Program-made: the position numbers and the translations under genes
Notes under the pieces: model-generated
Told to the model about the DNA's origin: nothing
The model's database searches: none
The model's input: the letters and a program-made list of their open reading frames with translations, nothing else
Shown here: piece by piece, positions 28,561 to 59,248 of the stretch
Layout of the letters: each line of letters starts with the position of its first letter
How positions within the stretch are numbered: position 1 is the stretch's first letter
From: Desulfoscipio geothermicus
GTDB taxonomy: Bacteria > Bacillota > Desulfotomaculia > Desulfotomaculales > Desulfallaceae
Direction of reading: 5' to 3'
NCBI GenBank assembly: GCA_016841905.1
Contig: JAENYF010000014.1
Coordinates: 1 to 61,477, forward strand
Length of the DNA: 61,477 bases

Positions 28561-28717
28561 AAAAGCCGGCCAAGGTATGATGAGAACATACCCGGGCCGG
28601 CTTCTTTGCCGGATTACTGCGCTATCTTACGCGGTTAAAATAAAAAAGCCCACGAACAATTTCCAGGGAACTGTTCACGGGCATCATTGCCAAATTTTTA
28701 ATACATCATTGTATTAA
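28561..28717 (-). promoter_or_regulatory. two stacked ANTAR antiterminator/terminator units of glnA copy 1
   Basis: Reading on the minus strand. Unit 1: hairpin TTAATAC-AATGAT-GTATTAA (28698-28717), hairpin GGC-AATGAT-GCC (28680-28691), and a terminator whose 5' arm begins in the second hairpin (28643-28682, T-run). Unit 2: GCGT-AAGATA-GCGC (28619-28632), CCGGC-AAAGAA-GCCGG (28597-28612), then a second terminator (28561-28600). Three of the four six-base loops have A at 1 and G at 4, the ANTAR recognition rule; AAGATA has A at 4. The tandem arrangement means two successive decisions. Confidence 0.85.
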
Positions 28718-28950
28718 GGCTATTCAATTAAGTAACATAATTATAATTGAGCTGTTTTTATAATGCAATAGTTTATTTATCGTTTGTAAAATTTTTTTAC
28801 CTGCATTCGTCCGACTTTATGTTATTACTCCAAAGTATTGTATTTTTTTCTATATGAAAATGGAAATGTATACAATATTTCTACTAGTAATATCTTGTTT
28901 TTTCTCGCCAACTTAGTATAATTAACTGAAGCAAATGAAATAATAACTGA

Positions 28951-29098
28951 GGACAACGGCGTCCCCGTGATTTGCCAGGAGCAAATTACCGGGGATGTTT
29001 TTAGTTGCCGGCGGCTCAATGACGAGTCCACAAAGTATTGCTTAATGAGGTTATGCCTTATTTAAAAGCCATACTTTGTGGGCCTTTTTATTTTGTGC
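28951..29098 (+). promoter_or_regulatory. tandem ANTAR-type attenuators of the glutamate synthase operon
   Basis: Unit 1: GGAC-AACGGC-GTCC (28951-28964), whose 3' arm abuts and shares bases with a terminator hairpin CCCCGTGATTTGC / GCAAATTACCGGGG followed by TGTTTTT. Unit 2: GGCTC-AATGAC-GAGTC (29013-29028) overlapping the 5' arm of a terminator CCACAAAGTAT / ATACTTTGTGG, T-run ending at 29098. Both loops fit AxxGxx. Each unit lacks a clear first hairpin of the usual pair. Confidence 0.75.
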
Positions 29099-29116
29099 TG
29101 ATGGGAAGGAATGAGC

Positions 29117-29557
29117 ATGATGGGGAGAATCAAGGCTAAACCCGAGTTTTGTATGGGTTGTCACCTGTGTGAAGTATGGTGTGCGGTGGCCCACTCTAAA
29201 TCCAAACACATCATCAAGGCATTTTTATACGAGCAAGATAAACCGCTCCCGCGGTTGGTGGTGGAGGAAAATCTACCTCTTACCTTTGCTCTGCAGTGCA
29301 GGCATTGTGCCGAACCGGATTGTGTCGCCGCCTGTATAAGCGGAGCCCTTTGGAAAGATCCGGAGTCCGGTCTGGTGATACACGACCCCGAGCAATGCGT
29401 GGGTTGTTACAGCTGCGTGCTAACCTGTCCCTATGGCAGCATATTCATAAACCCCGGGAAAAGGGAAATTGTTAAATGCGACCTTTGCACCGGACTGGAT
29501 ACCATGTATTGTGTAAGTCACTGTCCCAACGAAGCACTGGTCTATGAAGACAGTTAA
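29117..29557 (+). CDS. 4Fe-4S ferredoxin-type electron carrier of the glutamate synthase operon
   Basis: About 146 aa. Four cysteine clusters are visible: CMGCHLCEVWC, CRHCAEPDCVAAC, CVGCYSCVLTCPYG, CDLC...CVSHCP. These are sufficient for about four [4Fe-4S] clusters, like the HycB/DmsB family of electron-transfer subunits. It probably shuttles electrons between NAD(P)H or a reduced donor and the FMN-containing synthase. ATG 29117 is placed 6 bases after AAGGA; ATG 29111 would be too close to it. It is the first gene of a five-gene unit. Confidence 0.88.
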   Translation: MMGRIKAKPEFCMGCHLCEVWCAVAHSKSKHIIKAFLYEQDKPLPRLVVEENLPLTFALQCRHCAEPDCVAACISGALWKDPESGLVIHDPEQCVGCYSCVLTCPYGSIFINPGKREIVKCDLCTGLDTMYCVSHCPNEALVYEDS

Positions 29558-29579
29558 TTATAGGTGAGGGTGATCAGCA

Positions 29580-30887
29580 ATGTGTAATATGGATAATTAT
29601 AAATATCTAATAATTGGAAACTCTGCGGGTGCTGTGGGTTGTATAGAAGGTTTGCGCAGTATAGACAAAAGCGGCACAGTGGCTTTGGTGGCTGAAGAAG
29701 ACAGCCATGTATACTCAAGGGCGTTAATCCCTTATTACTTAAGTGGCCGGATCACCCGCGAGCAAATGTACTACCGGCCTTTTGATTTTTATGATCGAGC
29801 CCGGGTTAGTGTGATAAAGGGGCACCGGGCGGTTAAAATCGATAGCGCTGAACGGGTTGTGGAACTGGATAACGGCGGCCGGTTGGGTTATGGCCGGCTG
29901 CTCATAGCCACTGGAGGAAAACCCGTCTTCCCGCCCATCCCCGGCTTTGACCAACAACAAAATGTGTTTGGTTTTCACAGCCTGCCCGATTTACAGGGCA
30001 TTGAAAAAGAACTGATTTATGCCCACAATGCCGTAGTACTGGGCGGTGGGGTCATCGGTTTGATGGCTGCCGAAGCGTTGCACAAAAATGGTATGAAGGT
30101 GCATGTGCTGGAGCTGGCAGACCGGCTGTTAGCTCCGGTGGTGGATGAGACCACGTCCCACCTGGTGGAAGATGCATTGCAAAAGGCTGGGGTGGCTTTG
30201 TACTTAAATAATACTATTGATCAGATAAACGGTGACGATTGGGTGGAAAGCGTTACTTTAAAAGATGGCCAAATCATCCCTTGCGACTTATTAATTGTTG
30301 GTGTGGGAGTGGCACCCCGGGCGGAACTGGCCGAGGGTACGGATATTGCGTTCAACCGGGGAATCGTAGTGAATAAGAAAATGGAAACCTCGGTGCCGGG
30401 TATCTATGCCTGTGGTGACTGCGCATCCACCTATAACTTCGTAACGGGCGCCGAGCAAAACCTGCCGCTGTGGCCCAACGCCTACCTGGGCGGTCGTATT
30501 GCCGGCTTTAACATGGCCGGTATAGAGAGGGCGTTTGTTCAGGGCACCACGATGAATGCTATGCACTTTTTCGACGTTAATATTGTCAATGCCGGTATCA
30601 ATGTGACCGGTTCAAATCAGGACGACAGCCTTGGCGTAATACAGGAATATGAGCAAAACAGCCAAAACTACCGTAAATTTGTACTCTCTGAAAGCGGTCA
30701 ACTCAAAGGTTTTATACTGGTTGGTCAAATAGCCAGAGCAGGTATCTTTTTAAATTTAATGCGTCGCCAAATTGACGTGCGGGCTTTTCAGCGGGATTTA
30801 TTTAAGAACGATTTTGGTTACGCCGATTTGCCGGATGCATTGCGCTGGGAACTGCTGCAAGATGACGTCATTTTAGGGGTGGTATAA
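29580..30887 (+). CDS. FAD/NAD(P)-dependent oxidoreductase of the glutamate synthase operon
   Basis: 435 aa. Two Rossmann-like nucleotide sites (YLIIGNSAGAVGCIEGL at the N-terminus for FAD; AVVLGGGVIGLMAAEAL near 155 for NAD(P)H) and the second FAD contact GIYACGDCAS near 280 place it with nitrite-reductase/NADH-oxidase type flavoproteins. The operon context gives it the role of GltD, feeding electrons to the synthase. It lies 22 bases after the ferredoxin gene and ends 1 base before the amidotransferase gene. Confidence 0.88.
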   Translation: MCNMDNYKYLIIGNSAGAVGCIEGLRSIDKSGTVALVAEEDSHVYSRALIPYYLSGRITREQMYYRPFDFYDRARVSVIKGHRAVKIDSAERVVELDNGGRLGYGRLLIATGGKPVFPPIPGFDQQQNVFGFHSLPDLQGIEKELIYAHNAVVLGGGVIGLMAAEALHKNGMKVHVLELADRLLAPVVDETTSHLVEDALQKAGVALYLNNTIDQINGDDWVESVTLKDGQIIPCDLLIVGVGVAPRAELAEGTDIAFNRGIVVNKKMETSVPGIYACGDCASTYNFVTGAEQNLPLWPNAYLGGRIAGFNMAGIERAFVQGTTMNAMHFFDVNIVNAGINVTGSNQDDSLGVIQEYEQNSQNYRKFVLSESGQLKGFILVGQIARAGIFLNLMRRQIDVRAFQRDLFKNDFGYADLPDALRWELLQDDVILGVV

Positions 30888-30888
30888 A

Positions 30889-32034
30889 ATGCTGGTACAA
30901 AAATATTACGAGAGCGAGCGGTTTGTGCCGGATAAAGAGATGGATGCCTGCGGGCTGTTCGGAGTGATGCATACCGGCGGTGTTAGATTTGGCGGCCAGA
31001 TGGCCATTGATGCGATAAAAAACATGAAGGTGCGCGGCAGCGGACTGGGCGGCGGGTTTGCTATTTACGGGCTGTATCCTAAATACAAGGATTATTATGC
31101 TCTGCACATTATCTATCAAAACAAAAACCTGGCGGCCAAAAAGGTAGTAGAGACTTTTTTAAAAAAGCATTTTTATGTGGTATTTGACGAAGAAATACCT
31201 ACAAACCCGGATATCCGCCTGTTTGCTCCCCCTCTGGCGTGGCGGTATTTTGTGGCTCCGCAGAAAAGCGGTGTTGAGGAGGATGTACCTGATGATGAGT
31301 ATGTGATCAGTAAAGTGATGTACCTGAATAGTGAGATAGAAGATGCTTATGTATTTTCATCGGGTAAAGATGCGGGCGTTTTCAAAGGCGTAGGTTTTCC
31401 CGAAGAAATAGCGGATTACTTTATGCTGGAGCAGTTATACGAAGGGTATATCTGGACGGTGCACAGCAGATTTCCCACCAACACACCGGGCTGGTGGGGC
31501 GGTGCGCATCCGCTTTCTATATTGGACTGGACGGTGGTACATAATGGTGAGATTTCCTCTTACGGTGCCAACCGCCGGTTTCTGGAAATGCATAATTACT
31601 ACTGTACTTTACACACGGATACCGAAGTGCTGGCCTATGCGGTGGATCTGTTAATGCGGCGCCAGGGGCTGCCCATAGAAGTGGTGGCCAAAATATTAGC
31701 CCCGCCCATGTGGGAGGCCATCCGTTACATGAGTGACAACGATAAAGAATTATACACGGCACTGCGTATGACCTACGCGCCGCTGTTAATGAACGGGCCC
31801 TTTACGGTAATTGTCGCCCATCATAACGAAATGATCGGCCTAACCGACCGCATCAGGCTAAGGCCCATTACAGCGGGAGCCAAGGGCGAGCTGGTGTTTT
31901 TATCCTCGGAAGAAGCGGCTATCCATGCAGTATGCCCTGATCTGGAACTAGCCTGGACACCTCCCGGCGGTGAACCGGTGGTGGTCAGGCTGCACACCAA
32001 AGATCACTTGCAAAGTTTAAATAAATCCATTTGA
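30889..32034 (+). CDS. glutamate synthase, glutaminase (class II amidotransferase) subunit
   Basis: 381 aa. The class II glutaminase nucleophile is Cys21 (MDACGLFGVM), so 20 residues must be removed to expose it at the N-terminus. Other parts of the fold: VHSRFPTNTPGWWGGAHP, WTVVHNGEISSYGANRRFLE, LHTDTEVLAYAVD, MNGPFTVIVAHHNEMIGLTDRIRLRP. In ordinary GltB this domain is fused to the FMN and GXGXG domains; here it is a separate protein, as in the archaeal-type split enzyme. It overlaps the spacer before the next gene. Confidence 0.9.
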   Translation: MLVQKYYESERFVPDKEMDACGLFGVMHTGGVRFGGQMAIDAIKNMKVRGSGLGGGFAIYGLYPKYKDYYALHIIYQNKNLAAKKVVETFLKKHFYVVFDEEIPTNPDIRLFAPPLAWRYFVAPQKSGVEEDVPDDEYVISKVMYLNSEIEDAYVFSSGKDAGVFKGVGFPEEIADYFMLEQLYEGYIWTVHSRFPTNTPGWWGGAHPLSILDWTVVHNGEISSYGANRRFLEMHNYYCTLHTDTEVLAYAVDLLMRRQGLPIEVVAKILAPPMWEAIRYMSDNDKELYTALRMTYAPLLMNGPFTVIVAHHNEMIGLTDRIRLRPITAGAKGELVFLSSEEAAIHAVCPDLELAWTPPGGEPVVVRLHTKDHLQSLNKSI

Positions 32035-32045
32035 GGGTGGTAAAT

Positions 32046-33560
32046 ATGTATGATTACTTATTACCGGAATTTATAGTTGAACGGCGGGAAGATAGTTGTA
32101 TCCGCTGCCGGGTATGCGAGCGTCAGTGTGCCAACGAGGTACACCTGTATGATACCGAGCTGGACAGATTTTTCTTGTCTGAAAAAGATTGCGTGGGCTG
32201 CCAGCGCTGTGTAGCACTTTGTCCCACCGGTGCTCTGTATGTGCACCCCCGGCAGGCTGATTACCGGCCAAATAGCAGCTGGACCAGGGATAAAATGCAA
32301 AATCTCAAGAAGCAGGCCGCCACGGGCGGGGTAATTTTGACGGGCAGCGGCAATGACAAACCGATCCGGGTATACTGGGATCACCTGCTGCTTAATGCTT
32401 CCCAGGTAACAAATCCATCTATTGACCCGCTGCGGGAGCCCATGGAACTGCAAACATTTTTAGGACGCAAGCCGGATACTTTGAAAATTGAAATTAGTGC
32501 CGGCAAGGCTAAATTGGCTTCCGAAATGTTTCCCAATGTTCCGGTGCAAATACCGCTGGTGTTTTCCGCCATGTCCCTGGGCGCAATCAGCTACCCGGCT
32601 TTTAAATCGCTGGCTATGGCGGCCAAGGAGGCCGGAGTGTTGTTTAATACCGGTGAGGGTGGCTTGCCCGTGGAAATGCGGGATGAGTATGCCGACTGCG
32701 CCATAGTGCAGTGCGCCAGCGGCCGGTTTGGAGTTGATCTCGATTATTTGAACAGCGCCCGGATTATTGAAATTAAGATTGGCCAGGGAGCCAAGCCGGG
32801 CATTGGGGGGCACCTGCCCGGAGAAAAGGTATCCGATTACATTGCCCAAACCCGGATGATTCCCCGTGGTACCGACGCTTTGTCACCGGCACCCCAGCAT
32901 GATATATATTCCATTGAAGACCTGTCTATGCTGATTTACGCGCTGAAAGAGGCGACGAATTACACCAAACCGGTTTCGGTAAAAATTGCCGCGGTGCACA
33001 ATGTGGCGGCTATTGCCTCGGGCATTGTCCGGGCAGGGGCAGACATTGTGGCCATTGACGGCATCAGGGGCGGCACCGGTGCGGCACCCCTGGCTACCCG
33101 GGATAACGTAGGCATACCGTTAGAACTGGCCCTGGCTGCAGTAGATAAAAGGCTGCGGGACGAAGGTATCCGAAATAGATGCTCAGTTATGGCTGCCGGG
33201 GGTATCCGCTCCTCTGCGGACGCTATTAAAGCCATTGCCCTGGGGGCCGATGGCGTATATATCGGCACTGCCGCATTGGTAGCGATGGGCTGCACCCTCT
33301 GTCATAAATGCTATACCGGCAGGTGCAACTGGGGGATCTGTACCCAGGACCCCTATCTGACCAAGCGGTTAAATCCCGAATTAACCAGTCAAAGACTGGT
33401 CAACTTGTTGAGGAGCTGGAGCCATGAAATTCAAGAGATGCTGGGCGGTCTGGGCGTAAACGCTATTGAAAGCCTGCGGGGTAACCATGAGCACTTGCGC
33501 GGCGTGGGTCTTGAAGAATGGGAGCTAAATATCCTGGGAGTAAAGGGAGCAGGAGAGTGA
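32046..33560 (+). CDS. gltB: glutamate synthase, FMN synthase subunit with ferredoxin domain
   Basis: 504 aa. N-terminal two-cluster ferredoxin domain (CIRCRVCERQCANEVH, CVGCQRCVALCPTGAL, about residues 16-65), then the FMN-binding TIM barrel: PLVFSAMSLGAISY, FNTGEGGLP, IEIKIGQGAKPGIGGHLPG, IAIDGIRGGTGAAPLA-like (DIVAIDGIRGGTGAAP), MAAGGIRSSADAIKAIALGAD, and the 3Fe-4S cysteines MGCTLCHKCYTGRCNWGICTQ. ATG 32046 follows GAGGGTGG by 6 bases. It combines 2-oxoglutarate with ammonia from the glutaminase subunit. Confidence 0.94.
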   Translation: MYDYLLPEFIVERREDSCIRCRVCERQCANEVHLYDTELDRFFLSEKDCVGCQRCVALCPTGALYVHPRQADYRPNSSWTRDKMQNLKKQAATGGVILTGSGNDKPIRVYWDHLLLNASQVTNPSIDPLREPMELQTFLGRKPDTLKIEISAGKAKLASEMFPNVPVQIPLVFSAMSLGAISYPAFKSLAMAAKEAGVLFNTGEGGLPVEMRDEYADCAIVQCASGRFGVDLDYLNSARIIEIKIGQGAKPGIGGHLPGEKVSDYIAQTRMIPRGTDALSPAPQHDIYSIEDLSMLIYALKEATNYTKPVSVKIAAVHNVAAIASGIVRAGADIVAIDGIRGGTGAAPLATRDNVGIPLELALAAVDKRLRDEGIRNRCSVMAAGGIRSSADAIKAIALGADGVYIGTAALVAMGCTLCHKCYTGRCNWGICTQDPYLTKRLNPELTSQRLVNLLRSWSHEIQEMLGGLGVNAIESLRGNHEHLRGVGLEEWELNILGVKGAGE

Positions 33561-33564
33561 TAAA

Positions 33565-34419
33565 ATGAACGGTTTTAATGTTAAGTTTGGTTTTCGCGAT
33601 AACTTCTTAGATAATTTACAGCCGGTAGATTTTCTATACCATACCAGAGTAAGTACTAACGGCTGTTGCGCCAGCATAAACGCCCTTGGTCTAAAGCACA
33701 AGGAGTTAAATGACTTGCTCAGGGAAACTGTGCTGCAGGGGAGCACGGAGCTGGTCATTAATAATGTGTTTGGGCAAAGGTATATCGGCACCAGGCTTTT
33801 TTTACCCCCTGAAGCTAATAAACTGCATATTGAAGTAAATAAATTTCCGGGCAACGATTTAGGTGCGTTTTTAAACGGTCACCAAATTATTGTTCATGGT
33901 AATGCTCAGGACGGCGTGGGTAATACAATGAATAGCGGAGAAATCATCGTACATGGCCGGGCGGGAGATGTAACGGCTATGTCTATGCGGGGCGGCAAAA
34001 TATTTATCAGGGATAACGTGGGTTACCGCACTGCCATTCATATGAAGGAGTACCGGGAGAAAGTGCCCGTGCTGGTGGTGGGAGGCACAGCCCAGGACTT
34101 TTTAGGCGAATATATGGCCGGAGGTATTGTGCTGCTGCTGGGTTTAAACTTGCAGCAAGGTGAACCCCACCGGGCCAACTATATCGGCACCGGTATGCAC
34201 GGCGGCGTGATTTACCTGCGGGGCTGCCTGGCGGAACACCAGCTGGGCAAAGAAGTGGGAGTTTTGCCGCCGGATGACCGGGACAAGGCAAATATCGACC
34301 GTTATGTGCGGGAATACTGTAACCACTTCGGCGGCAACCCCGACCAGATTTTAAACGAACGTTTCCAAAAACTAGTCCCGGTGTCCTTAAGGCCTTATGG
34401 ACAAATTTACGCCTATTAG
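33565..34419 (+). CDS. glutamate synthase, GXGXG domain subunit
   Basis: 284 aa. The repeated right-handed beta-helix signature is visible as GNDLGAFLNGHQIIVHGNAQDGVGNTMNSGEIIVHGRAGDVTAMSMRGGKIFIRDNVGYRTAIHMK in parts, with the G-G-G spacing of the GltB C-terminal domain. It has a structural role in holding the other domains. It starts 4 bases after the FMN-subunit stop, with AGGAGAG upstream. It ends the five-gene operon. Confidence 0.9.
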   Translation: MNGFNVKFGFRDNFLDNLQPVDFLYHTRVSTNGCCASINALGLKHKELNDLLRETVLQGSTELVINNVFGQRYIGTRLFLPPEANKLHIEVNKFPGNDLGAFLNGHQIIVHGNAQDGVGNTMNSGEIIVHGRAGDVTAMSMRGGKIFIRDNVGYRTAIHMKEYREKVPVLVVGGTAQDFLGEYMAGGIVLLLGLNLQQGEPHRANYIGTGMHGGVIYLRGCLAEHQLGKEVGVLPPDDRDKANIDRYVREYCNHFGGNPDQILNERFQKLVPVSLRPYGQIYAY

Positions 34420-34421
34420 GG

Positions 34422-34451: not shown

Positions 34452-34502
34452 AAAGTGCCACAATGTTGTAACCTCGAGTAATAACATTGTGGCACTTTTA
34501 TG
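34452..34502. terminator. bidirectional terminator between glt operon and asnB
   Basis: Stem AAAGTGCCACAATGTT with its complement, 15-base loop, T-runs on both sides. Confidence 0.85.
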
Positions 34503-34512: not shown

Positions 34513-36357
34513 TTAATTTATTAGCACATGGTACTCTCTCAGCCAGGTATCTACCTGAATTAAATAAGCAAAGTATTGTGCATCGGTCATCAGCTGGCCG
34601 TAAAAAGGCAGTTTAAAAAATGAGCCGGTGGATTGGGTCATGCGGCGAACATTATCCGCGTTAATCAGCGGCAGCAGTGGCGATGAGGCGTCCTCCAGTA
34701 TTTCCGTGGCCACTCTCCGCACTGCCTCCAGGTAAGCCGGGTGATGAGATTTGGGATAAGGACTTTTGCGCCGGTTGAGTACATCCTCCGGTAGTAAGCC
34801 GGCCACCGCCCGACGTAGTATACCCTTTTCCATGTTGCCGTAATTTTTCATAGTCCAGGGTATGTTCCAGGCGTACTCTACCAGGCGATGGTCACAGAAA
34901 GGGACGCGCACTTCAAGACCTACGACCATGCTCATCCGATCTTTGCGGTCCAGCAAGGTGGCCATGAACCAGTTTATGGTTAGGTACATAAGTTCCCGTA
35001 GATGAGCTTCACCGGGGTCTTCGCCCGGCAGGCGGGGCACATCAGCCAGGGTTTCCCGGTAACGCCGGCTTACGTATTCTTCGGGGTGCAGCAGATTGAT
35101 TATTTCCGGGTTCAGCATGTGCACGCGCTCAGCAAGTCCCCGCAGCCAGGGAAAGGTGCCTTCGGCTGCAGCCTGGGGCTTGTGGAACCAGGGATAGCCG
35201 CCGAATATTTCATCGGCGCACTCGCCCGACAGGGCAACGGTAGCTGATTGCTTAATGGCGCGGGAAAAAAGATACAACGAGGCGTCCACGTCGGCCATGC
35301 CGGGCAAATCTCGGGCCCGCACTGCAGCTGCCAGTGCATCCACCAGCTCAGGGGTGTCAAGGATAATCTCGTGATGCTCGGTTCCCAGGTCTTTTGATAC
35401 GCGCTCCACCCACTGGGCATCACTATTTGGCTGGAACAGGTCGGGTTGGAAATACCGTTCATTATCTTGAAAGTCAACAGACCAGGTATGCAGCTGTTCC
35501 GCACCGGTCTGCTTACGGACACCTGCGGCCACCGCCGTGATGGCGCTGGAATCCAGCCCGCCCGATAATAAAGTGCAAACAGGCACATCGGCCACCAACT
35601 GGCGAGTAACGGCATCGCAGAAAAGATCACGCACTTTGGCCGTGGTGGTGTTCAAGTCGTCTTCGTGTGGCCTGCTATACAGCTGCCAATATCGCTTAAT
35701 ATGCAGACCGCTGCGGTTATACACCAGGTAGTGTCCGGGCTTGAGCTCGGCTACGTTACGAAATACACCGTGACCCGGTGTGCGCCCCGGGCCCATAATT
35801 AACACTTCTGCCAGCCCGTCGGCATCCACAACAGGCTGCACTGCCGGGTGGGCCAGCAACGATTTTAATTCGGAGCCAAACAGCAGGGCGCTGCCCCGCC
35901 GGGTATAAAACAGCGGTTTAACACCCAGACGGTCCCGGGCTAAAAACAAACTCTGTTCTTGTTCGCTCCAGATAGCCAGGGCATAGATGCCGTTTAACCG
36001 CTGTAAGCAATCCTCGCCCCACTCAATGTACGATAACAGCAGCACTTCGGTGTCCGAGTGTCCGCTAAAGGAATACCCGCGGGCTGTTAATTCCAGCCTC
36101 AGTTCCGGGGTATTGTACAGCTCACCGTTATATACCATTACATATAGATGCTCCCCGCGCCGGCGAAGCATGGGCTGGCCACCACCTGCCGGGTCAACCA
36201 CCACCAACCGGCGATGGCCTAGGGCAGCATGTTTGGAAATCCATGTATTGCCCGCATCGGGACCGCGGTGGAACTGAATTTCATTCATGGCTTCCAGTAT
36301 AGAGTGCTGCCGGGTTAGATCTTCATCCCAGTCAATCCAGCCTGTAATTCCGCACAT
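34513..36357 (-). CDS. asnB: asparagine synthetase (glutamine-hydrolysing)
   Basis: 614 aa. N-terminal Ntn glutaminase domain with Cys2 (MCGITGWID), FHRGPDAGNTWI, VYNGELYNTPELR and HSDTEVLLLSY. The C-terminal synthetase domain has the P-loop pyrophosphatase motif LLSGGLDSSAIT and the conserved ALSGECADEIFGGYPW. GGGAGGG lies before the ATG. It probably follows amt1 and glnK on one transcript but has its own internal ANTAR attenuator, so its level can be set separately. Confidence 0.94.
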   Translation of the reverse strand: MCGITGWIDWDEDLTRQHSILEAMNEIQFHRGPDAGNTWISKHAALGHRRLVVVDPAGGGQPMLRRRGEHLYVMVYNGELYNTPELRLELTARGYSFSGHSDTEVLLLSYIEWGEDCLQRLNGIYALAIWSEQEQSLFLARDRLGVKPLFYTRRGSALLFGSELKSLLAHPAVQPVVDADGLAEVLIMGPGRTPGHGVFRNVAELKPGHYLVYNRSGLHIKRYWQLYSRPHEDDLNTTTAKVRDLFCDAVTRQLVADVPVCTLLSGGLDSSAITAVAAGVRKQTGAEQLHTWSVDFQDNERYFQPDLFQPNSDAQWVERVSKDLGTEHHEIILDTPELVDALAAAVRARDLPGMADVDASLYLFSRAIKQSATVALSGECADEIFGGYPWFHKPQAAAEGTFPWLRGLAERVHMLNPEIINLLHPEEYVSRRYRETLADVPRLPGEDPGEAHLRELMYLTINWFMATLLDRKDRMSMVVGLEVRVPFCDHRLVEYAWNIPWTMKNYGNMEKGILRRAVAGLLPEDVLNRRKSPYPKSHHPAYLEAVRRVATEILEDASSPLLPLINADNVRRMTQSTGSFFKLPFYGQLMTDAQYFAYLIQVDTWLREYHVLIN

Positions 36358-36404: not shown

Positions 36405-36476
36405 AAAAAAAAATGTAGCTCACCAAAAAGGTGGGCTACATTGCCGTGAAAAGTAGCTGCGCTGTTGCATCTACTT
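36405..36476 (-). promoter_or_regulatory. ANTAR antiterminator/terminator unit before asnB
   Basis: On the minus strand: hairpin AAGTAGATGC-AACAGC-GCAGCTACTT (36451-36476, one mismatch; loop has A at 1 but A at 4), then GGC-AATGTA-GCC (36434-36445, loop fits AxxGxx). The second hairpin overlaps the 5' arm of a terminator TGTAGC...GCTACA with a T-run (36405-36440). It lies between glnK and asnB. Confidence 0.75.
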
Positions 36477-36517: not shown

Positions 36518-36856
36518 CTACAGAGCGGCATCGCCTTTTTCACCGGTGCGAATGCGGATCGCGTCGTCGAGTTTGGTAATGAATATTTTGCCGTCACCAA
36601 TTTCTCCGGTTCTGGCCGCCTGGATAATTAATTCTATCGCCTCATCTTTGTCCTTATCGGAGGCGACGATTTCAATTTTTACCTTGGGCAGCAGGTTAAT
36701 GCTGTATTCCGTGCCCCGGTAGACTTCCTTACGGCCTTTTTGCAGCCCGCAGCCCATCACCTGAGCTACGGTCATGCCTTTGAGCCCATGTTTTGACAAG
36801 CTGTCCTTAATATCCTCCAGTACCCCGGGCCTAACTATAGCCTCAATTTTGACCAT
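36518..36856 (-). CDS. glnK: nitrogen regulatory protein P-II
   Basis: 112 aa trimeric signal protein. Start MVKIEAIVRPGVLEDIKDSL, T-loop with Tyr51 (YRGTEYSINLLPKVKIE), B-loop ELIIQAARTGEIGDGKIFI. Tyr51 is the residue uridylylated in other bacteria; whether a GlnD acts on it here is unknown. It lies 54 bases after amt1 on the same strand, the usual amtB-glnK pairing, so it is expected to block the transporter when nitrogen is ample. Confidence 0.95.
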   Translation of the reverse strand: MVKIEAIVRPGVLEDIKDSLSKHGLKGMTVAQVMGCGLQKGRKEVYRGTEYSINLLPKVKIEIVASDKDKDEAIELIIQAARTGEIGDGKIFITKLDDAIRIRTGEKGDAAL

Positions 36857-36910
36857 TTAAAACATCCTTCCTTTCAGGTTATATTTATACCAAATAATCG
36901 ATCAAATCAA

Positions 36911-38194
36911 TCAAATGGTGTAAGCTCTTTCACTGTGCTCGTTAACATCTAACCCCGTTGCCTCGGCTTCATCATCAACGCGCAGCCTGGTAACGGCACC
37001 AACGACCTTCAGGATGAGAAACGTCATCACCGAAGCAAAAACTACTGTGGCCACTACACTGAAAGCTTGAATACCAAACTGTGCGACGTTACCGTAGAAG
37101 AGTCCTTCAGCACCTTCAGCCACGGAGAACAGCCCGGTAGCCAGGGCTCCCCACATACCGCCGGCACCGTGGATGCCAAATACGTCCAGGGAGTCATCGT
37201 AACCCATTCTGATCTTGACATAGCTGACTGTGAAGTAGCATAGCGCGCCGCTCACTAGTCCGATTGCCAGTGAGCCCATTGGAGTTACGAAAGCACAGGC
37301 CGGGGTAATGGCCACCAGTCCGGCAATAGCACCTGAGGCCGCGCCCAGCATAGTGGGTTTACCATGCCGCAGCCACTCCACCAGTACCCAGGACATTAAA
37401 GCTGCACCGGTGGCCACTTGTGTGTTTAAAAAAACACTGACCGCCAGGCCATTGGCAGCCAGGGCGCTGCCGGAGTTAAAGCCAAACCAGCCAAACCAGA
37501 GCAGTGCCGCGCCCAAAACCACGTAAGGGATATTGTGCGGTACCATCGGCTCCGTACCGTACCCCTTGCGCCTGCCCAGTACAAGGGCCGCCACCAGGGC
37601 CGAGACACCGGATGAAATGTGCACCACGGTACCGCCGGCAAAGTCAAGTGCCCCTAGTTGCATCAGCCAGCCACCGCCCCACACCCAATGGCAAATCGGG
37701 TCATAAACCAGGGTGGTCCATAGCATTAAAAACAGCATAAAAGCGGGAAAACGCATCCGTTCTACAATGGCTCCTGTAATCAGTGCCGGGGTAAGTATGG
37801 CAAACATCATTTGAAAAACTACGAACAGCTGGTGCGGAATGGTTCCGATTGGCTCCAGGCCTACACCTTTTAACCCCAGGTAACTCAAGTCGCCGATAAA
37901 ATTACCGATATCGGTCCCAAAAGCCAGGCTGTAACCATAGATAAGCCACAGAATTGTTACAACGCCCAGGCAGATAAAGGACATCATCATGGTATTCAGC
38001 ACGTTTTTCTGGCGTACCATACCGCCGTAAAACAAGGATATTCCGGGTATCATCAGAAATACCAGAGCTGTTGAAATAATAACCCAGGCTGTGTCGCCTG
38101 TATCAATGCCCTCTTCAGCAGCCCAGGCGAACATGGGGAAAATAAAAAGCATCATTACCACCAATAATGTGATTATGCCCAACCTCTTTTTCAT
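36911..38194 (-). CDS. amtB: ammonium transporter, Amt family (copy 1)
   Basis: 427 aa from ATG 38194 (MKKRLGIITLLVVMMLFIFPMFAWA), a signal-peptide-like start, then 11 membrane segments. Motifs: DTAWVIISTALVFLMIPGISLFYGGMVR, GAIVERMRFPAFMLF, DFAGGTVVHISSGVSALVAALVLG, HGAGGMWGALATGLF. GGAGGTAAAG lies before the start; the frame open from 38257 has no site. Followed by glnK. Confidence 0.95.
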   Translation of the reverse strand: MKKRLGIITLLVVMMLFIFPMFAWAAEEGIDTGDTAWVIISTALVFLMIPGISLFYGGMVRQKNVLNTMMMSFICLGVVTILWLIYGYSLAFGTDIGNFIGDLSYLGLKGVGLEPIGTIPHQLFVVFQMMFAILTPALITGAIVERMRFPAFMLFLMLWTTLVYDPICHWVWGGGWLMQLGALDFAGGTVVHISSGVSALVAALVLGRRKGYGTEPMVPHNIPYVVLGAALLWFGWFGFNSGSALAANGLAVSVFLNTQVATGAALMSWVLVEWLRHGKPTMLGAASGAIAGLVAITPACAFVTPMGSLAIGLVSGALCYFTVSYVKIRMGYDDSLDVFGIHGAGGMWGALATGLFSVAEGAEGLFYGNVAQFGIQAFSVVATVVFASVMTFLILKVVGAVTRLRVDDEAEATGLDVNEHSERAYTI

Positions 38195-38275
38195 TGACTT
38201 TACCTCCCAATAATTAAAAAAATAATCATTCACCAATCCATTGCCAATACACTCCACCCCCTTAAATTAAAAACA

Positions 38276-38518
38276 AAAAGGACGCTTATCAGAGCATAAT
38301 TGCTCCAAATAAGCGTCCTTGCTTCCAATAAAAGGAGCTCACGGTTCCTATAGGCCACTTTGCCTATACCACCCGGCATTGGGTTAGAACCCGTGTTAAA
38401 ATAAAAAATGCCCTTTGAGGCTAAGTTTGTAACCTCAAAAGGCGTCGTTGCCTTTTTTATTAAAATATGTTTAACCAATCTTTTGCAAATTATAGAACAG
38501 TTAATTAGACAATGTCAA
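38276..38518 (-). promoter_or_regulatory. promoter and two stacked ANTAR-type attenuators of amt1-glnK
   Basis: Minus strand. Promoter TTGACA (38513-38518), 18-base spacer, TATAAT (38489-38494). Unit 1: GGC-AACGAC-GCC (38441-38452) overlapping a terminator (38404-38441). Unit 2: ACCC-AATGCC-GGGT (38371-38384) and TATAGGC-AAAGTG-GCCTATA (38349-38368), both loops AxxGxx, enclosed by a third stem CACGGGTTC/GAACCGTG (38387-38395 with 38340-38347), then a strong terminator AGGACGCTTAT/ATAAGCGTCCT with T5 (38276-38320). Unit 1 has no clear first hairpin. Confidence 0.8.
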
Positions 38519-38639: not shown

Positions 38640-38712
38640 CAGGAATTGTTCCTGTCGAGCAAAGGCGCTCTTAAAACCGGGTTTTTATCCAGGTTTTAAG
38701 TGCGTTTTTTTG
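38640..38712 (+). promoter_or_regulatory. ANTAR antiterminator/terminator unit of carAB
   Basis: First hairpin ACAGG-AATTGTT-CCTGT (38640-38656), with a seven-base loop (six if one A is bulged, then ATTGTT). Second hairpin GAGC-AAAGGC-GCTC (38658-38671), loop AxxGxx. Its 3' arm overlaps the 5' arm of a terminator TTAAAACC/GGTTTTAA with a T7 run ending at 38712. Confidence 0.75.
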
Positions 38713-38767: not shown

Positions 38768-39847
38768 ATGCACCAAAGTGGCTATATTGTACTGGAAAAT
38801 GGGCGAATTTTTAAAGGGAAGTCTTTTGGGGCAACCGGGGAAGTCGTCGGCGAGATTGTTTTTACCACCGGGATGACCGGTTATCTGGAAACTTTAACTG
38901 ATCCGAGCTATTATGGGCAGATTGTGGTTCAGACGTTTCCTTTAATAGGAAACTATGGTATCATTCCCTCCGATTTTGAAAGCTCTTCTCCCAAATTAAA
39001 AGCTTATATTGTCCGAGAGTGGTGTCAAGTTCCATCCAACTTCCGCAGTGAGGGTGAGCTTGATACTTTTTTAAAGATGCATAATATTGTTGGGGTTTGC
39101 GGAATTGATACGCGTGAGCTGACCAAGATCATCAGAGAGGTTGGGGTGATGAATGCCAGGATTGCCACAACGCTGGATGATCTGGATAAAGTACTGGCAG
39201 AAATTAAAAACTATCGTATTATCGATGCGGTGCAATCAGTTAGTACCAAGGTGATTTCGATCGCTAAAGGGGTTCCGGCAGGCCACAAAGTGGTCTTGTG
39301 GGATTTCGGGGCTAAAGAAAATATTTGCCGGGAGTTGCTGAAGCGTGGCTGCGAGGTTATTACCGTGCCGGCGGATACCACTTCGCAAGAAATTTTGGAT
39401 TTAACGCCGGATGGGGTTATGCTTTCCAACGGGCCTGGTAATCCGGCCGATAATAAAGAGATTATTGTAGAGCTGGCAAAGTTGTCTCAATCAGGGGTGC
39501 CAATCTTTGGGATTTGCCTGGGGCATCAGTTGTTGGCCCTGGCGCAGGGAGCAGAAACGGTTAAACTAAAATACGGGCATCGAGGTGCCAACCAGCCTGT
39601 CAAAGATTTAAAAACGGGCAGGGTTTATATAACCAGCCAGAATCATGGCTACGCTGTTGTACCCGATAGCTTACCTGCCCACGCTCATTTAAGTCATCTG
39701 AATGCCAATGATGGTACCTGCGAAGGAATTGCATATCAAAATATGCCTGCTTTCTCAACCCAGTTTCATCCTGAGGCTGCAGCAGGACCCTTGGATACCG
39801 GGTTCTTATTCGAGCAATTTATTGACCTGATGAGGAGAGTGAAATAA
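38768..39847 (+). CDS. carA: carbamoyl-phosphate synthase small subunit (glutaminase)
   Basis: 359 aa. N-terminal CPSase domain (residues 1-150, including FTTGMTGYLETLTDPSYYGQIVVQT), then class I glutaminase with Cys250 in FGICLGHQLL and the His-Glu pair in QFHPEAAAGP. It passes ammonia to CarB. TATGGAGG lies upstream of the ATG, and carB begins directly after its stop. No pyr genes are nearby; control is by the ANTAR unit, not by a pyrimidine leader, which ties carbamoyl phosphate to nitrogen supply. Confidence 0.95.
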   Translation: MHQSGYIVLENGRIFKGKSFGATGEVVGEIVFTTGMTGYLETLTDPSYYGQIVVQTFPLIGNYGIIPSDFESSSPKLKAYIVREWCQVPSNFRSEGELDTFLKMHNIVGVCGIDTRELTKIIREVGVMNARIATTLDDLDKVLAEIKNYRIIDAVQSVSTKVISIAKGVPAGHKVVLWDFGAKENICRELLKRGCEVITVPADTTSQEILDLTPDGVMLSNGPGNPADNKEIIVELAKLSQSGVPIFGICLGHQLLALAQGAETVKLKYGHRGANQPVKDLKTGRVYITSQNHGYAVVPDSLPAHAHLSHLNANDGTCEGIAYQNMPAFSTQFHPEAAAGPLDTGFLFEQFIDLMRRVK

Positions 39848-45559: not shown

Positions 45560-45598
45560 ATCGATCACTCCTGTTTAATGGTTTTTTTAAATAAAAAT

Positions 45599-45660
45599 GC
45601 CCGGCATTCATAAATAAAGAATGCCGGGCACCATTGCCTTGTTCAAGTCTTCATTGACCT
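45599..45660 (-). promoter_or_regulatory. ANTAR antiterminator/terminator unit of nadE
   Basis: Minus strand: AGGTC-AATGAA-GACTT (45645-45660) and GGC-AATGGT-GCC (45627-45638), both loops AxxGxx, 6-base linker. The second hairpin shares its GCC with the terminator GCCCGGCATTC/GAATGCCGGGC (45599-45629), T-run follows. Confidence 0.88.
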
Positions 45661-45792
45661 GTGAAGTTTCTTTATATTAAGATTATATTACAAACAAGAC
45701 TGGATGCGAAGATATTTAATTTGCAATAACTGATTTAAATAATTATCTACTATTGCTAAATTCAAACATAAAACATATAATGTAATAAAAAT

Positions 45793-46013
45793 GATACAAG
45801 GTTGTATCAAAAACTGACCAAAGAAGGTCCTGATTGCCGTGTTTTTATACGGGTTAGGGCTTTTTTTATTGCTTTATGAAAGCGGTATACACGGCATGAC
45901 GGTTAGTCAGGTTTTGGGTGCGGCGCACAAAAGGGTTACTAATATCCCATCGATGGGTTTTTAGGGCAAGGACGCTCGTGTTGGTTAATAACCACCGGTG
46001 TCCTTATTTTATT
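45793..46013 (+). promoter_or_regulatory. ANTAR unit plus second attenuator of amt2
   Basis: GATAC-AAGGTT-GTATC (45793-45808) and GACC-AAAGAA-GGTC (45816-45829), both AxxGxx, followed by a terminator with a T7 run (45829-45867). A second structured stretch (45870-45965) with CCC-ATCGAT-GGG as the only candidate hexaloop leads into a terminator AAGGAC...GTCCTT, T-run ending about 46013. Confidence 0.8.
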
Positions 46014-52760: not shown

Positions 52761-52790
52761 TAGTTTAAGAAAGTTTAAGCCTGAACCCGT
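52761..52790. repeat. 33-base repeat, diverged copy 3
   Basis: TAGTTTAAGAAAGTTTAAGC then CTGAACCCGT, matching the copies at 12342 and 13090 with a few differences. It overlaps the 3' end of the IclR gene and supplies its stop codon and last residues (RVQA). Confidence 0.65.
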
Positions 52791-53608: not shown

Positions 53609-55189
53609 TTAGCCCAAAATCTGTTCAACTTCTTCGGCATCCAAATCCATGATGTAAGGAATACCGGTTACATCTGCCGCTTCCCGGGTAATGCTGGCTA
53701 GATCATCTCTAGTAATATATTCGAGGCTGAACTTGCGAGCACCACACATCAACTGCTGCAGACCGACACCCAGGCGGTCCAAATAATTATAAACACCAAT
53801 GGCAGTAGTTGGAATACGAGCGGCATCAGCACCAAATTTCTCTTTCAAAGCTGTATTGGCAGTAAAGATTTGCTCAACGGTATTGCCGTACTTATTGGCC
53901 ATATCGGCGGGCACTTTGCCTTCTTTCACATAATTGCCGATAGTTTTGCCTACCATAGCAGCGGCCAGCGGAGCGCGGGCCATGCCGATAGCTTTAACAT
54001 AAGGCGCAGCCAGAGCCAGACCTTTGTACATATGATCTTCCAAAGAGAAGCCGCCTGCTACAGCTATCTTAGGTACATACATGCCTTTAGCCTTAATACG
54101 TTCCATGTATTGATACAGCAATGCTTCCAGGTAAACAGTGGGTACGCCCCACTCGTTCATCATCCGCCACGGGCTCATACCTGTGCCGCCACCGGCACCA
54201 TCAATTGTCAAGAGGTCTAATTTTGCCAGTGAAGCGAATTTAACAGCCCTGGCCAGGTCCGCCGGGCGGTAGGCACCGGTTTTCAGCATCACATGCTTGG
54301 CTCCCAAGCTGCGTAATTCAGCCACCCGAGCCATGAAGGTTTCCTCATCAACCATACCAATGCGAGAATGCCGTTCAAATTCCTTAAATGAGCCCTGGGT
54401 AAAACTTTGCTGTATATATGAGCTTTCCGGATCCGGAATTACAATATAGCCGTGGGATTTAAGCTGCCGGGCTCTCTCAATTGTGGGTAGTTTTACCTCA
54501 CCGCCGATATCCTTGGCACCCTGGCCCCACTTAATTTCTACTGCTTCCACGCCCAGATCGTTTATTACATAGTCAGCCACTCCGAGGCGTGTATCCTCAA
54601 CATTAAACTGCACCACAATGGCACCGTATCCGTTGTACCATTCCTGGAATAATTTGACCCGGCGTGCCATATCCGGGGACTTAACCACACGGCCATTTTT
54701 AATTTCCCCATCGGGGTCCATACCGCAGACATTTTCACCAATGGTCAGGACAACACCGGATATGGCCGCGCCAATAGCCAGACCTTCCCAGTTATCCTTT
54801 GCCACCTGGGTTGAACCGAGGCCCGGTATTACAATGGGCAGTTTAAGCTTAATAGTATTGGCAGAACCGATTTCTGATTCGATGTTGACGGCCGGGAAAG
54901 TGGCTTTGTCGCTATCGGCCTCGATCCCATATGCGCCGACAGCTGTACCCATAATGTTAAAATGAGACATATCAACCGGGTATTCCTTCTGAGAAGCAGC
55001 GGTTGAGTTGCCGAAAGGCTGGGGATAAATAAGTTCTCGTCCGCGATAGGCCGACTTGCCTACTTCGCAAAGGCCGGGGCAACCATCTATACAGGTCGCG
55101 CACAAGCCGCTGGAGGAACAAATATTACCCGGTGTTCTGTTTTTCGTTTGTGTTGCTGAACTGGCATTGATTCCGTTGCTGTAACCCAT
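53609..55189 (-). CDS. stand-alone FMN-binding glutamate synthase-like protein
   Basis: 526 aa. The barrel (PIVIPGLGSTQVAKDNWEGLAIG, VEIKWGQGAKDIGGEVKLP, LLTIDGAGGGTGMSPWRMMNEWGVP, IAVAGGFSLEDHMYKGLALAAPYVKAIGMAR) belongs to the FMN-linked glutamate synthase family, but there is no glutaminase or GXGXG domain and no fused ferredoxin. The N-terminus has a cysteine cluster (CSSSGLCATCIDGCPGLCEVG) likely to hold an iron-sulfur cluster. AGGAGGT lies before ATG. It is between two IclR regulators and near gdhA; the true reaction is not known. Confidence 0.85.
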   Translation of the reverse strand: MGYSNGINASSATQTKNRTPGNICSSSGLCATCIDGCPGLCEVGKSAYRGRELIYPQPFGNSTAASQKEYPVDMSHFNIMGTAVGAYGIEADSDKATFPAVNIESEIGSANTIKLKLPIVIPGLGSTQVAKDNWEGLAIGAAISGVVLTIGENVCGMDPDGEIKNGRVVKSPDMARRVKLFQEWYNGYGAIVVQFNVEDTRLGVADYVINDLGVEAVEIKWGQGAKDIGGEVKLPTIERARQLKSHGYIVIPDPESSYIQQSFTQGSFKEFERHSRIGMVDEETFMARVAELRSLGAKHVMLKTGAYRPADLARAVKFASLAKLDLLTIDGAGGGTGMSPWRMMNEWGVPTVYLEALLYQYMERIKAKGMYVPKIAVAGGFSLEDHMYKGLALAAPYVKAIGMARAPLAAAMVGKTIGNYVKEGKVPADMANKYGNTVEQIFTANTALKEKFGADAARIPTTAIGVYNYLDRLGVGLQQLMCGARKFSLEYITRDDLASITREAADVTGIPYIMDLDAEEVEQILG

Positions 55190-55242
55190 TTTATTATCAG
55201 ACCTCCTAGTCTATTTAGTACATCACTGTACTATTCCATGTA

Positions 55243-55606: not shown

Positions 55607-55650
55607 CAAATAAAAAGAGAGCCTAGTCTTAAAAACGACCATGCTCCCTG
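55607..55650 (-). terminator. intrinsic terminator of the second IclR gene
   Basis: On the minus strand GGGAGC...GCTCTC stem around a loop, followed by TTTTTATTT. Confidence 0.55.
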
Positions 55651-55671
55651 AACTCTATGGCTAATAATCCA

Positions 55672-56860: not shown

Positions 56861-58195
<1,335 letters not shown>

Positions 58196-58310
58196 AATTA
58201 TTTTTCTAATATAAGACGTTAAGAATAAATAAGTTTTCGTATTATGAAATCATGAATCATTGCTTTTCCAAAATTTATTGATATAATTTATTTTAGCTAA
58301 AAAAATAACA

Positions 58311-58384
58311 GGATACAATGACGTGTCCATTAATGGCAATGGTCGCCCTGTGTAGTTGATATATAACTACACGGGCATTTTTAT
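58311..58384 (+). promoter_or_regulatory. ANTAR unit before the ANTAR gene itself
   Basis: GGATAC-AATGAC-GTGTCC (58311-58328; loop AxxGxx) and GGC...GCC (58335-58347) with loop AATGGT plus one unpaired C. The GCC is also the start of the terminator GCCCTGTGTAGTT/AACTACACGGGC (58345-58376) with T-run. It implies that the regulator controls its own transcription. Confidence 0.85.
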
Positions 58385-58408
58385 TTCTTTATATGGGGGG
58401 CAGCCTGC

Positions 58409-58993
58409 ATGAGTGAATACAGGGTAATATTGGTTGATGCAGATAATGTTTGGCGAAAAAATGTAAAGGCGATGCTCACCAAGTATGGCCACTGGGTGGT
58501 TGGAGAGGCCGGTGACGGCCTGAGCGCGATAAAACTGGTGCGCAGCAGAGAACCTGATCTACTTATTATCAATGCCGCACTGCCGGGGGGCATGGACGGG
58601 ATGCAAGTGGCCAAAATAGTACATGAAGATAAATTGGCACCAGTTATTATTACCAGCACCTCCGACGAGCAGGTCATATTAGAGCAGGCCAAGGAAGCAA
58701 GGGTATCTGCTCTGTTAATCAAGCCTTTGGGGGAAATGTCGTTATTACCGGCGGTGGAGTTGGCCATAGCAAATTATCACGAGATTACCGCTCTGGAAAG
58801 AAGAATAAAGGATTTGCAGGAAACGCTGGAAACCAGAAAAATTGTGGAACGGGCTAAGGGTATTTTAATGGAAACCCAGGGATTAACTGAAGCCGAAGCC
58901 TTTAAGCGCATACAACGCCAGAGCATGAACAAGCGGGTAAGCATACGCCTGGTGGCTGAAGCGGTTATAATGGCTCATTCATTAAATAGGTAG
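58409..58993 (+). CDS. ANTAR-domain antiterminator with degenerate receiver domain
   Basis: 194 aa. Residues 1-115 are response-regulator receiver-like with the acidic pair Asp10/Asp12, the GMDG loop and Lys in IKPLG, but the phospho-acceptor position (PDLLIINAALPGG) is Asn55, so ordinary phosphorylation is not possible. A short coiled coil (HEITALERRIKDLQETLETRK) joins it to the C-terminal three-helix ANTAR domain (IVERAKGILMETQGLTEAEAFKRIQRQSMNKRVSIRLVAEAVI in parts). It would bind paired AxxGxx hexaloops in RNA and prevent termination. It lacks a NasS or histidine kinase neighbour. GGGGGG site before ATG 58409. Confidence 0.92.
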   Translation: MSEYRVILVDADNVWRKNVKAMLTKYGHWVVGEAGDGLSAIKLVRSREPDLLIINAALPGGMDGMQVAKIVHEDKLAPVIITSTSDEQVILEQAKEARVSALLIKPLGEMSLLPAVELAIANYHEITALERRIKDLQETLETRKIVERAKGILMETQGLTEAEAFKRIQRQSMNKRVSIRLVAEAVIMAHSLNR

Positions 58994-59167
58994 CTAAAAA
59001 TACTGACATTTCGACATGCTTGTGCTATAATTAATTTTAGCATGTAATTTATTCTAGCATATAATAACATGGCATTTAATTGGTATCGGCCTAGCCTATA
59101 GTGATGCAATAGATGTTGCACGTATAGTCAAATAAATACGGCAGTTAAAAACTAAAAAATATTTTAC

Positions 59168-59248
59168 GGTACAATGGCGTATCATAAATAAGGGCAATGA
59201 AGCCCACCTGGCAGTTATCATGCAAATTCTGTCAGTGTGGGTTTTTTT
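59168..59248 (+). promoter_or_regulatory. ANTAR antiterminator/terminator unit of glnA copy 2
   Basis: GGTAC-AATGGC-GTATC (59168-59183) and GGGC-AATGAA-GCCC (59192-59205), both loops AxxGxx, 8-base linker. The second hairpin's GCCC opens the terminator CCCACCTGGCAG.../...CTGTCAGTGTGGG with T7 (59203-59248). The clearest example of the motif in the window. Confidence 0.92.

Follow-up and report, generated by a model that had tools for sequence, protein, structure and literature searches.

A predicted ANTAR antitermination regulon for nitrogen assimilation in Desulfoscipio geothermicus, with a candidate tenth target

Nitrogen-assimilation genes and their leaders

A 61,477-nt contig of Desulfoscipio geothermicus (JAENYF010000014.1, assembly GCA_016841905.1), analysed over its whole length and here called the window, brings together a set of nitrogen-assimilation genes and the gene of a REC-ANTAR protein, 58409 (Table 1). 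The genome comprises 3.08 Mb in 91 contigs, of which the window is one. Gene calls in the window include glnA1, a split glutamate synthase operon (glt), asnB, glnK, amt1, carA, a CarB-DapF fusion, a glutamine-dependent nadE, amt2, gdhA, the REC-ANTAR protein, glnA2 and the acetolactate synthase small subunit. Nine leaders, each belonging to one transcription unit, contain 13 terminator-type elements, in which hairpins with six-base loops, mostly of the form AxxGxx (A at position 1, G at position 4; A1/G4), lie on or beside an intrinsic terminator. From these sequence features we propose, with a probability of about 85%, that the leaders form an ANTAR antitermination regulon for nitrogen assimilation run by 58409.

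The terminator-type elements number two each in the glnA1, glt, amt1 and amt2 leaders and one each in those of asnB, carA, nadE, the ANTAR gene (antar) and glnA2; the amt1 leader holds in addition a two-hairpin element, b, between its two terminator-type elements. The dual-hairpin arrangement of a first (P1) and second (P2) hairpin, with stems of at least 3 bp, six-base loops and a short linker (about 2 to 8 nt), is found in eight terminator-leader elements: glnA1 a, asnB, amt1 b, nadE, amt2 a and b, antar and glnA2. Only a single clear hexaloop is present in the other six (glnA1 b, glt a, glt b, amt1 a, amt1 c and carA). The asnB loops and some P2 loops were identified by eye in the leader sequences. 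All ten AxxGxx hexaloops listed in an earlier sequence-only reading of the window were found in the leaders that it named; not every element is a pair of such loops, six having a single one and two of the eight two-hairpin elements departing from the form, namely asnB with A at position 4 of P1 and antar with a seven-base P2 loop.

Sigma-70-like promoter matches, which are not evidence of function, precede the amt1, nadE, amt2 and glnA2 leaders among others. gdhA, located between target genes, was rejected as a target, having no A1/G4 hairpin with a stem of at least 4 bp.

Table 1. Genes and leader elements in the window (window positions; loop bases in square brackets)
Feature	Position	Strand	Matches or hairpins
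glnA1, type I glutamine synthetase	27169..28557	-	TIGR00653 577.2 bits
split glutamate synthase operon: iron-sulfur protein, GltD-like, glutaminase, flavin mononucleotide (FMN) and GXGXG subunits	29111..34419	+	
asnB, glutamine-hydrolysing asparagine synthase	34513..36357	-	TIGR01536 521.2 bits
amt1 (ammonium transporter) and glnK (PII)	36518..38257	-	TIGR00836 479.9 bits; PF00543 8.2e-27
carA and CarB-DapF fusion	38768..43888	+	
nadE, glutamine-dependent NAD synthase	43931..45568	-	NF010588 682.5 bits; CN_hydrolase and NAD_synthase domains
amt2, ammonium transporter	46031..47356	+	TIGR00836 422 bits
gltB2, stand-alone glutamate-synthase-like FMN protein	53609..55189	-	PF01645
REC-ANTAR protein 58409, presumed RNA-binding antiterminator, 194 aa	58409..58993	+	
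glnA2, type I glutamine synthetase	59314..60645	+	TIGR00653 586.7 bits
glnA1 leader element a	28648..28716	-	P1 TTAATAC[AATGAT]GTATTAA, P2 GGC[AATGAT]GCC, terminator 28682-28648
glnA1 leader element b	28562..28632	-	CCGGC[AAAGAA]GCCGG overlaps second terminator; hairpin upstream with AAGATA loop
glt leader element a	28951..28997	+	GGAC[AACGGC]GTCC, terminator 28960-28997
glt leader element b	29013..29084	+	GGCTC[AATGAC]GAGTC beside second terminator
asnB leader	36414..36472	-	P1 loop AACAGC (A at position 4), P2 GGC[AATGTA]GCC, terminator 36440-36414
amt1 leader element a	38410..38456	-	AAAAGGC[AACGAC]GCCTTTT, terminator 38443-38410
amt1 leader element b	38352..38386	-	ACCC[AATGCC]GGGT and TATAGGC[AAAGTG]GCCTATA
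amt1 leader element c	38280..38326	-	AAGC[AAGGAC]GCTT, terminator 38318-38280
carA leader	38657..38704	+	GAGC[AAAGGC]GCTC, terminator 38666-38704
nadE leader	45598..45661	-	P1 CAGGTC[AATGAA]GACTTG, P2 GGC[AATGGT]GCC, terminator 45630-45598
amt2 leader element a	45792..45860	+	P1 TGATAC[AAGGTT]GTATCA, P2 GACC[AAAGAA]GGTC, terminator 45827-45860
amt2 leader element b	45943..46003	+	P1 CCC[ATCGAT]GGG, P2 GGGC[AAGGAC]GCTC, terminator 45970-46003
ANTAR gene leader	58311..58376	+	P1 GGATAC[AATGAC]GTGTCC, P2 GGC[AATGGTC]GCC (7-base loop), terminator 58345-58376
glnA2 leader	59167..59241	+	P1 GGTAC[AATGGC]GTATC, P2 GGGC[AATGAA]GCCC, terminator 59203-59241
gltB2 leader	55199..55233	-	P1 TAGTAC[AGTGAT]GTACTA, then AGAC[TAGGAG]GTCT holding the Shine-Dalgarno; no terminator seen

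Hexaloop hairpins coincide with leader terminators

Terminator-like sites on both strands of the window were scored for a hexaloop hairpin on the terminator 5′ arm, a leader site being one at most 400 nt upstream of a gene start. With cut-offs that were chosen after the leaders had been inspected, and under which the glnA1 b and glt b terminators went undetected, A1/G4 hexaloops were found at 11 of 18 leader sites compared with 2 of 63 genic sites (Fisher p = 1.7e-7), while hexaloop hairpins of any sequence were found at 13 and 21 of these, respectively. The placement of hexaloop hairpins next to leader terminators, as first read from the sequence, is borne out by these counts. The base rate of A1/G4 is 166 in the 2,469 hexaloop hairpins on both strands of the window. 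The positive leader sites all belong to nitrogen genes (11 of 12, versus 0 of 6 other leader sites), and the sole negative nitrogen-leader site is that of the ANTAR gene itself, with its seven-base P2 loop. Of nine other intergenic sites, one has a hexaloop hairpin, also A1/G4; this terminator lies between the ends of the glt operon and asnB (34455-34495), and its overlap with the hairpin, which has a 3-bp stem and the loop AAAGTG, is probably fortuitous.

All 13 terminator-type elements form the terminator in their minimum-energy free fold, and 12 of them lose the hexaloop hairpin adjoining it. Forcing the hexaloop hairpins costs from 0.9 kcal/mol (glt b) through 3.4 (antar) to as much as 12.1 (amt1 c) and mostly abolishes the base of the terminator stem. 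P2 overlaps the intrinsic terminator in the terminator-type leaders and not at gltB2. Because the free fold keeps the terminator and forcing the hairpins costs energy, the leaders appear to be off by default, and the energy cost of read-through has to be covered by something.

Covariation and distribution across genomes

A first covariance model (R1) was built on eight window elements, which match it by construction; its asnB row has one wrong first base, affecting the outermost P1 column only. A second model (R2) was built on 35 matches, 32 of them distinct, from the window and same-genus stretches. In the alignment of the 32 distinct elements, whose rows had been picked by a model with that same structure, 90.3% of cells are paired and 57 are double-changed, compared with 16.6 in shuffles and 3 to 19 when the structure was slid. 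Among these model-selected rows, P1 has A1 in all 32 and G4 in 27; the 26 six-base P2 loops have A1 in 24 and G4 in every case, and six further P2 loops have seven bases.

R2 matches at E ≤0.1, searched for under stricter filters, are present in 52 of 60 genomes and an ANTAR domain in 56 of 60, the own genome being included in both counts. The two are conserved together in most relatives: 51 of the 56 ANTAR genomes have R2 matches versus 1 of the 4 without (hypergeometric tail about 0.006, calculated by hand). In the own genome, where 150 of 734 candidates were scored, the eight R2 matches with E <0.01 all fall within a 31-kb island of the window (28.7 to 59.2 kb); the next matches had E values of 0.197 (in the window) and 0.333 (outside). 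Outside the window there was no R1 or R2 match at E <0.3 among the candidates scored (150 of 425 for R1, 150 of 734 for R2). The covariance-model check suggested along with the sequence-only reading has come out in favour of its leaders. Weak R1 matches outside the window at L039 and L040 were inspected by eye only.

A simpler pattern for the commonest P2, GGCAANGNNGCC, occurs at 61 places in the search versus 23 for the reversed control, including seven in the window, all in leaders. All 61 were inspected, and a terminator-like fold was seen at 12, six inside the window and six outside. The six outside all lie in a stop-to-stop frame of at least 90 codons, as do two of the six inside, and none of the six has an upstream A1/G4 hairpin; two other outside places have an upstream A1/G4 hairpin but no terminator. 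A looser P2 pattern with a T run did no better than its reversed control (154 versus 140) and was dropped.

Target by target, seven genus genomes, own included, were compared. None of the seven lacks the glnA1, glnA2, antar or asnB elements, the weakest of which is asnB of G001 (21.4 bits). Elements of amt2 occur in the own genome and in G004; in G002, G003 and G005 they stand ahead of glnK-amt2. Wherever nadE was found in the genus, a site accompanies it: the full element in the own genome and G004; P1 loops GCTGAA and GTTGAA (G1; by eye) with P2 AATGTC in G002 and G003; and P1 ATTAAA (by eye) with P2 AAAGAC in G005, with no nadE match in G001 and G006. Paired glt hairpins were seen by eye in G001, G002, G006 and G007, with P2 GATGCG in the first three. 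Outside the genus, elements precede at least one of antar-B, glnA1, glnA2, asnB, glt and amt in G007, G009, G010, G012 and G013.

The carA hairpin and terminator are shared by only the own genome and G004 among the seven. The own carA protein shares 47 to 49% identity with those of the five others, and the 330 nt upstream of those five genes hold only one AT-rich 4-bp hairpin (ACCGGT loop, G005). Since the hairpin is so confined and carA so divergent, the carAB copy looks like a recent recruit and seems to have been acquired or swapped. CarB and DapF form a single frame of 1346 aa (39848-43888), and the same fusion occurs in G004 (97% identical).

Two departures from the loop rule are conserved. 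The asnB P1 loop (36433-36472) keeps A4, as AACAGC, AACAGG or AATAGG, across the genus genomes; outside the genus, G007 and G009 share it and G010 does not (loci L041, L045, L051, L055, L120, L127 and L135). The antar P2 loop (58311-58348) has seven bases in all seven genus genomes and six in G007, G009 and G010; the seven-base form is possibly a detuned autoregulatory site.

The ANTAR protein 58409

58409 matches the ANTAR family PF03861 (E 8.6e-23; 80.3 bits, cut-off 27.3) and the receiver family PF00072 (E 2.3e-17) and is the sole ANTAR-domain match in its own genome; a single match was also the count for each genus genome searched. At L127, L131 and L136, in three genomes from other genera, a glnA and gltB2 are bracketed by two ANTAR genes. 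The best structural match of 58409 in the PDB is Rv1626 (1s8n, 3e-41), with EutV (6wsh) at 1.1e-30. The 11 RNA-contact residues of EutV (PMC8934654) were mapped by hand from the 58409-6wsh alignment, in which the chain count runs two ahead of the paper's. Seven are identical (R142, K143, K149, E160, M172, N173 and R175 in EutV numbering), two conservative (K147R, Y164F) and two changed (R168Q, R177S).

The phospho-acceptor Asp of the receiver domain is replaced in 58409 by N55. This Asn could be a one-base sequencing error, and the nearest relative, G004, has Asp here. The site varies more widely: 81 distinct ANTAR homologues with at least 150 aligned residues, own included, have 41 Asp, 27 Glu and 13 other residues. 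The 37 homologues above 55% identity are near constant at the RNA-contact positions, and their phospho-acceptor site has 19 Asp, 14 Glu and 4 others; the 44 more distant ones, among them a second ANTAR type, often have Cys at position 175 and Asp at 173. Given the Asn and the variation in the family, the need for phosphorylation may be relaxed and the input may not be phosphorylation. For the same reason we lean weakly towards activation by a protein partner, with PII or glutamine synthetase as candidates, over a dedicated kinase; no histidine kinase is present among the genes scanned near 58409, although a genome-wide kinase search was not made.

A candidate tenth target, gltB2

All nine leaders named in the sequence-only reading carry hairpins; a tenth, that of gltB2, had been missed. 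It is an untrained ninth R1 match directly 5′ of the gene, with 22.6 bits and E 0.0023 in the window. The gltB2 protein (525 aa) is a partial match to the glutamate synthase FMN region, with a match in 50 of 60 genomes, own included; G004 lacks it, and also lacks one IclR gene. The leader is conserved in all six genus genomes with the gene, as GTAC[AGYGAT]GTAC followed by AGAC, one or two bases, AGGAGGTCT and the start codon, and in UBA4966, whose protein is 83% identical, P1 is TGC[AATGAC]GCA and the second loop starts with AATGGGAG. The free fold already places the Shine-Dalgarno inside a hairpin, so that the ribosome-binding site lies within the second stem-loop. By analogy with ribosome-binding-site-sequestering ANTAR RNAs of actinobacteria (PMC8164766), control of gltB2 is probably translational and opposite in sign to that of the antitermination targets. 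The 2012 work of Ramesh et al. also mentions hits that overlap the ribosome-binding site (PMC3369931).

A competing account, to which we give somewhat less than even odds, is that the Shine-Dalgarno hairpin is ordinary local structure rather than an ANTAR site, or that binding opens the Shine-Dalgarno. The second hairpin is short, its loop either begins with T or G or is seven to eight bases long, and its stem is invariant in the genus and so yields no covariation, but P1 keeps A1/G4 in all seven leaders compared and has three pairs with compensatory change (six distinct rows, 83.3% of cells paired; on these small numbers, 10 of 500 shuffles reached the covariation score). The UBA4966 leader, with AATGAC in P1 and a second loop beginning AATG, also argues for an ANTAR site. 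The pattern AGAC N0-5 GGAGGTCT occurs at 10 places in the seven genus genomes versus 11 in the reversed control, and is therefore not enriched; only its position is telling, 6 of the 10 places being the gltB2 start, one in each genus genome with the gene. For gltB2 in viral contigs there was no pattern match.

Two IclR-family genes (52775-53569 and 55672-56472) flank gltB2, which favours the competing account and, as they may be activators, leaves unsupported the earlier statement that no DNA-binding activator is visible in the window. The gltB2 promoter region holds a GTGAAATATAATTTCAC palindrome, slightly altered versions of which appear in same-genus leaders. At L178 and L181 a terminator-type hairpin precedes gltB2 instead (seen by eye, unscored), so the mode of gltB2 control seems to have changed in the own lineage.

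A broader version of the ANTAR regulon would have two signs, with antitermination of the ammonium-assimilation set and translational repression of gltB2, a near-pseudo-receiver fed by a partner signal, and asnB A4 and antar seven-base loops that are tuned. We put this forward tentatively, as an unlikely combination.

Weighing the proposed regulon against alternatives

Several observations weigh against the antitermination regulon. Six of the 15 elements have one clear hexaloop, and the EutV dimer is reported to need contact with both hexaloops in turn to prevent termination (PMC8934654). At glt b, the hexaloop hairpin and the terminator coexist in the free fold. One genome (G029) has R2 matches and no ANTAR match, and five ANTAR genomes have no R2 match. 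Finally, the own-genome R2 list, with 150 of 734 candidates scored, lacks the 55199 match, and members outside the window could be overlooked. Even so, the sequence evidence as a whole speaks for a real and conserved regulon: the hairpins overlap terminators, are conserved and covary, and a single ANTAR protein was found. The proposal of one ANTAR protein behind all leaders is supported by the target anatomy, by the sole ANTAR protein found and by the presence of that protein's own leader among the predicted targets; the AxxGxx rule for every loop is not supported.

We doubt the narrower reading that only the two-hairpin elements answer to the ANTAR protein, which would make single-hairpin elements, among them carA, glt a, and amt1 a and c, ordinary attenuators or decayed ones. 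Low R2 scores of the single-hairpin elements (7.5 to 19 bits), the limitation of the carA hairpin to two genomes, and the absence from the own glt b of the stretch carrying a P2 hairpin, which relatives (G001, G002 and G006) have, would fit this reading, but glt a, amt1 a and c, and carA all keep the hexaloop hairpin on the terminator 5′ arm, and the glnA1 and amt1 leaders also contain a two-hairpin element. EutV binds a single hexaloop in vitro as its minimal site; the only base that it reads specifically is G4, and it makes no contact with A1 (PMC8934654), which makes single-hairpin and G1-loop sites plausible.

A very improbable reading takes the leaders to be attenuators worked by a riboswitch for glutamine or another ligand, a T-box or another RNA-binding protein, with AxxGxx incidental. 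Attenuators in the leaders of amino-acid genes are often riboswitches or T-boxes, which counts in its favour, and elsewhere the window does contain a T-box leader (21316-21563, minus strand) back to back with a cyclic di-AMP riboswitch (21744-21876, plus strand). However, Rfam scans of the leaders gave no family at threshold, on which ground a riboswitch or T-box origin was rejected; at E ≤1, the region 28500-59350 gave only a Brucella small RNA model at 51178-51303, far under its cut-off and outside the leaders. Loop positions 1 and 4 are also mostly kept while the stems vary, and the elements co-occur with ANTAR genes. A chance origin of the hairpins from AT-rich intergenic DNA has a negligible probability: short six-base-loop hairpins are common (the 2,469 above), but their enrichment at leader terminators and their conservation and covariation across genomes contradict chance.

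Relation to known ANTAR systems

Desulfotomaculum acetoxidans and D. reducens, which we take to be bacteria related to the host, are the first comparison for the antitermination regulon. An ANTAR nitrogen regulon of at least 13 elements in six transcription units has been predicted for D. acetoxidans, and glutamate synthase genes for D. reducens (PMC3369931), so the mechanism and the nitrogen regulon were already predicted in 2012 for Desulfotomaculum relatives and are not new. A literature search, with subscription papers mostly outside it, returned no later study of such a regulon in these relatives. The mechanism is the same and the gene functions overlap (PII, ammonium transport, and glutamine and glutamate synthesis). 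Unlike in those two organisms, the members found here are clustered on one contig within 31 kb, and control of one target looks translational; asnB, carAB, nadE and the ANTAR gene are predicted targets here and are not named in the text passages of PMC3369931 compared, tables and figures aside. New in the present analysis are gltB2 as a candidate tenth target, the Asn at the phospho-acceptor site, the carAB site shared with one relative only and the nadE site found throughout the genus wherever the gene was found.

EutV of Enterococcus faecalis with its eut leaders (6WSH, 6WW6) shares with 58409 and its leaders the REC-ANTAR architecture, dual hexaloops, a terminator-shared P2 and most RNA-contact residues. 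By contrast, EutV has a phospho-acceptor Asp54 and the kinase EutW, where 58409 has Asn and no kinase among the neighbouring genes scanned. The gltB2 leader and the actinobacterial RNAs (PMC8164766) both hold the ribosome-binding site inside the second stem-loop, but gltB2 belongs to a regulon that is otherwise antitermination-like.

Another ANTAR protein, AmiR, has the partner AmiC. AmiR is a pseudo-receiver ANTAR protein (PMC7496416), and the receiver of 58409 is likewise possibly not phosphorylated; unlike for AmiR, no AmiC-like partner was identified for 58409, and its closest relatives keep Asp.

Proposed mechanism and implications

By default, the nine leader transcription units would fold intrinsic terminators. 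When active, presumably under nitrogen limitation, 58409 would bind the hexaloop hairpin P1 and then P2, which would capture part of the terminator 5′ arm, so that polymerase reads on. Read-through would extend to ammonium transport (amt1-glnK, amt2), glutamine and glutamate synthesis (glnA1, glnA2, glt), the glutamine-using enzymes (asnB, carAB-dapF, nadE) and the ANTAR gene itself. Binding, the direction of the response and the nitrogen signal are what we infer. At gltB2, where a P1 of the same kind accompanies the Shine-Dalgarno hairpin, the same binding would block translation, giving an arm of opposite sign.

Well-studied nitrogen systems use the DNA-binding regulators GlnR, TnrA and NtrC. 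If the proposed regulon is true, ammonium uptake and the synthesis and use of glutamine would be controlled largely at the RNA level through one protein in this organism. The compact island offers natural leader variants in which loop sequence, loop size and hairpin number can be related to how strong ANTAR control is; the gltB2 leader lets one ask whether one ANTAR protein can be both an antiterminator and a translational repressor. Experimental effort would be well spent on the gltB2 arm, on the drifting receiver domain and on the loop departures that have been conserved.

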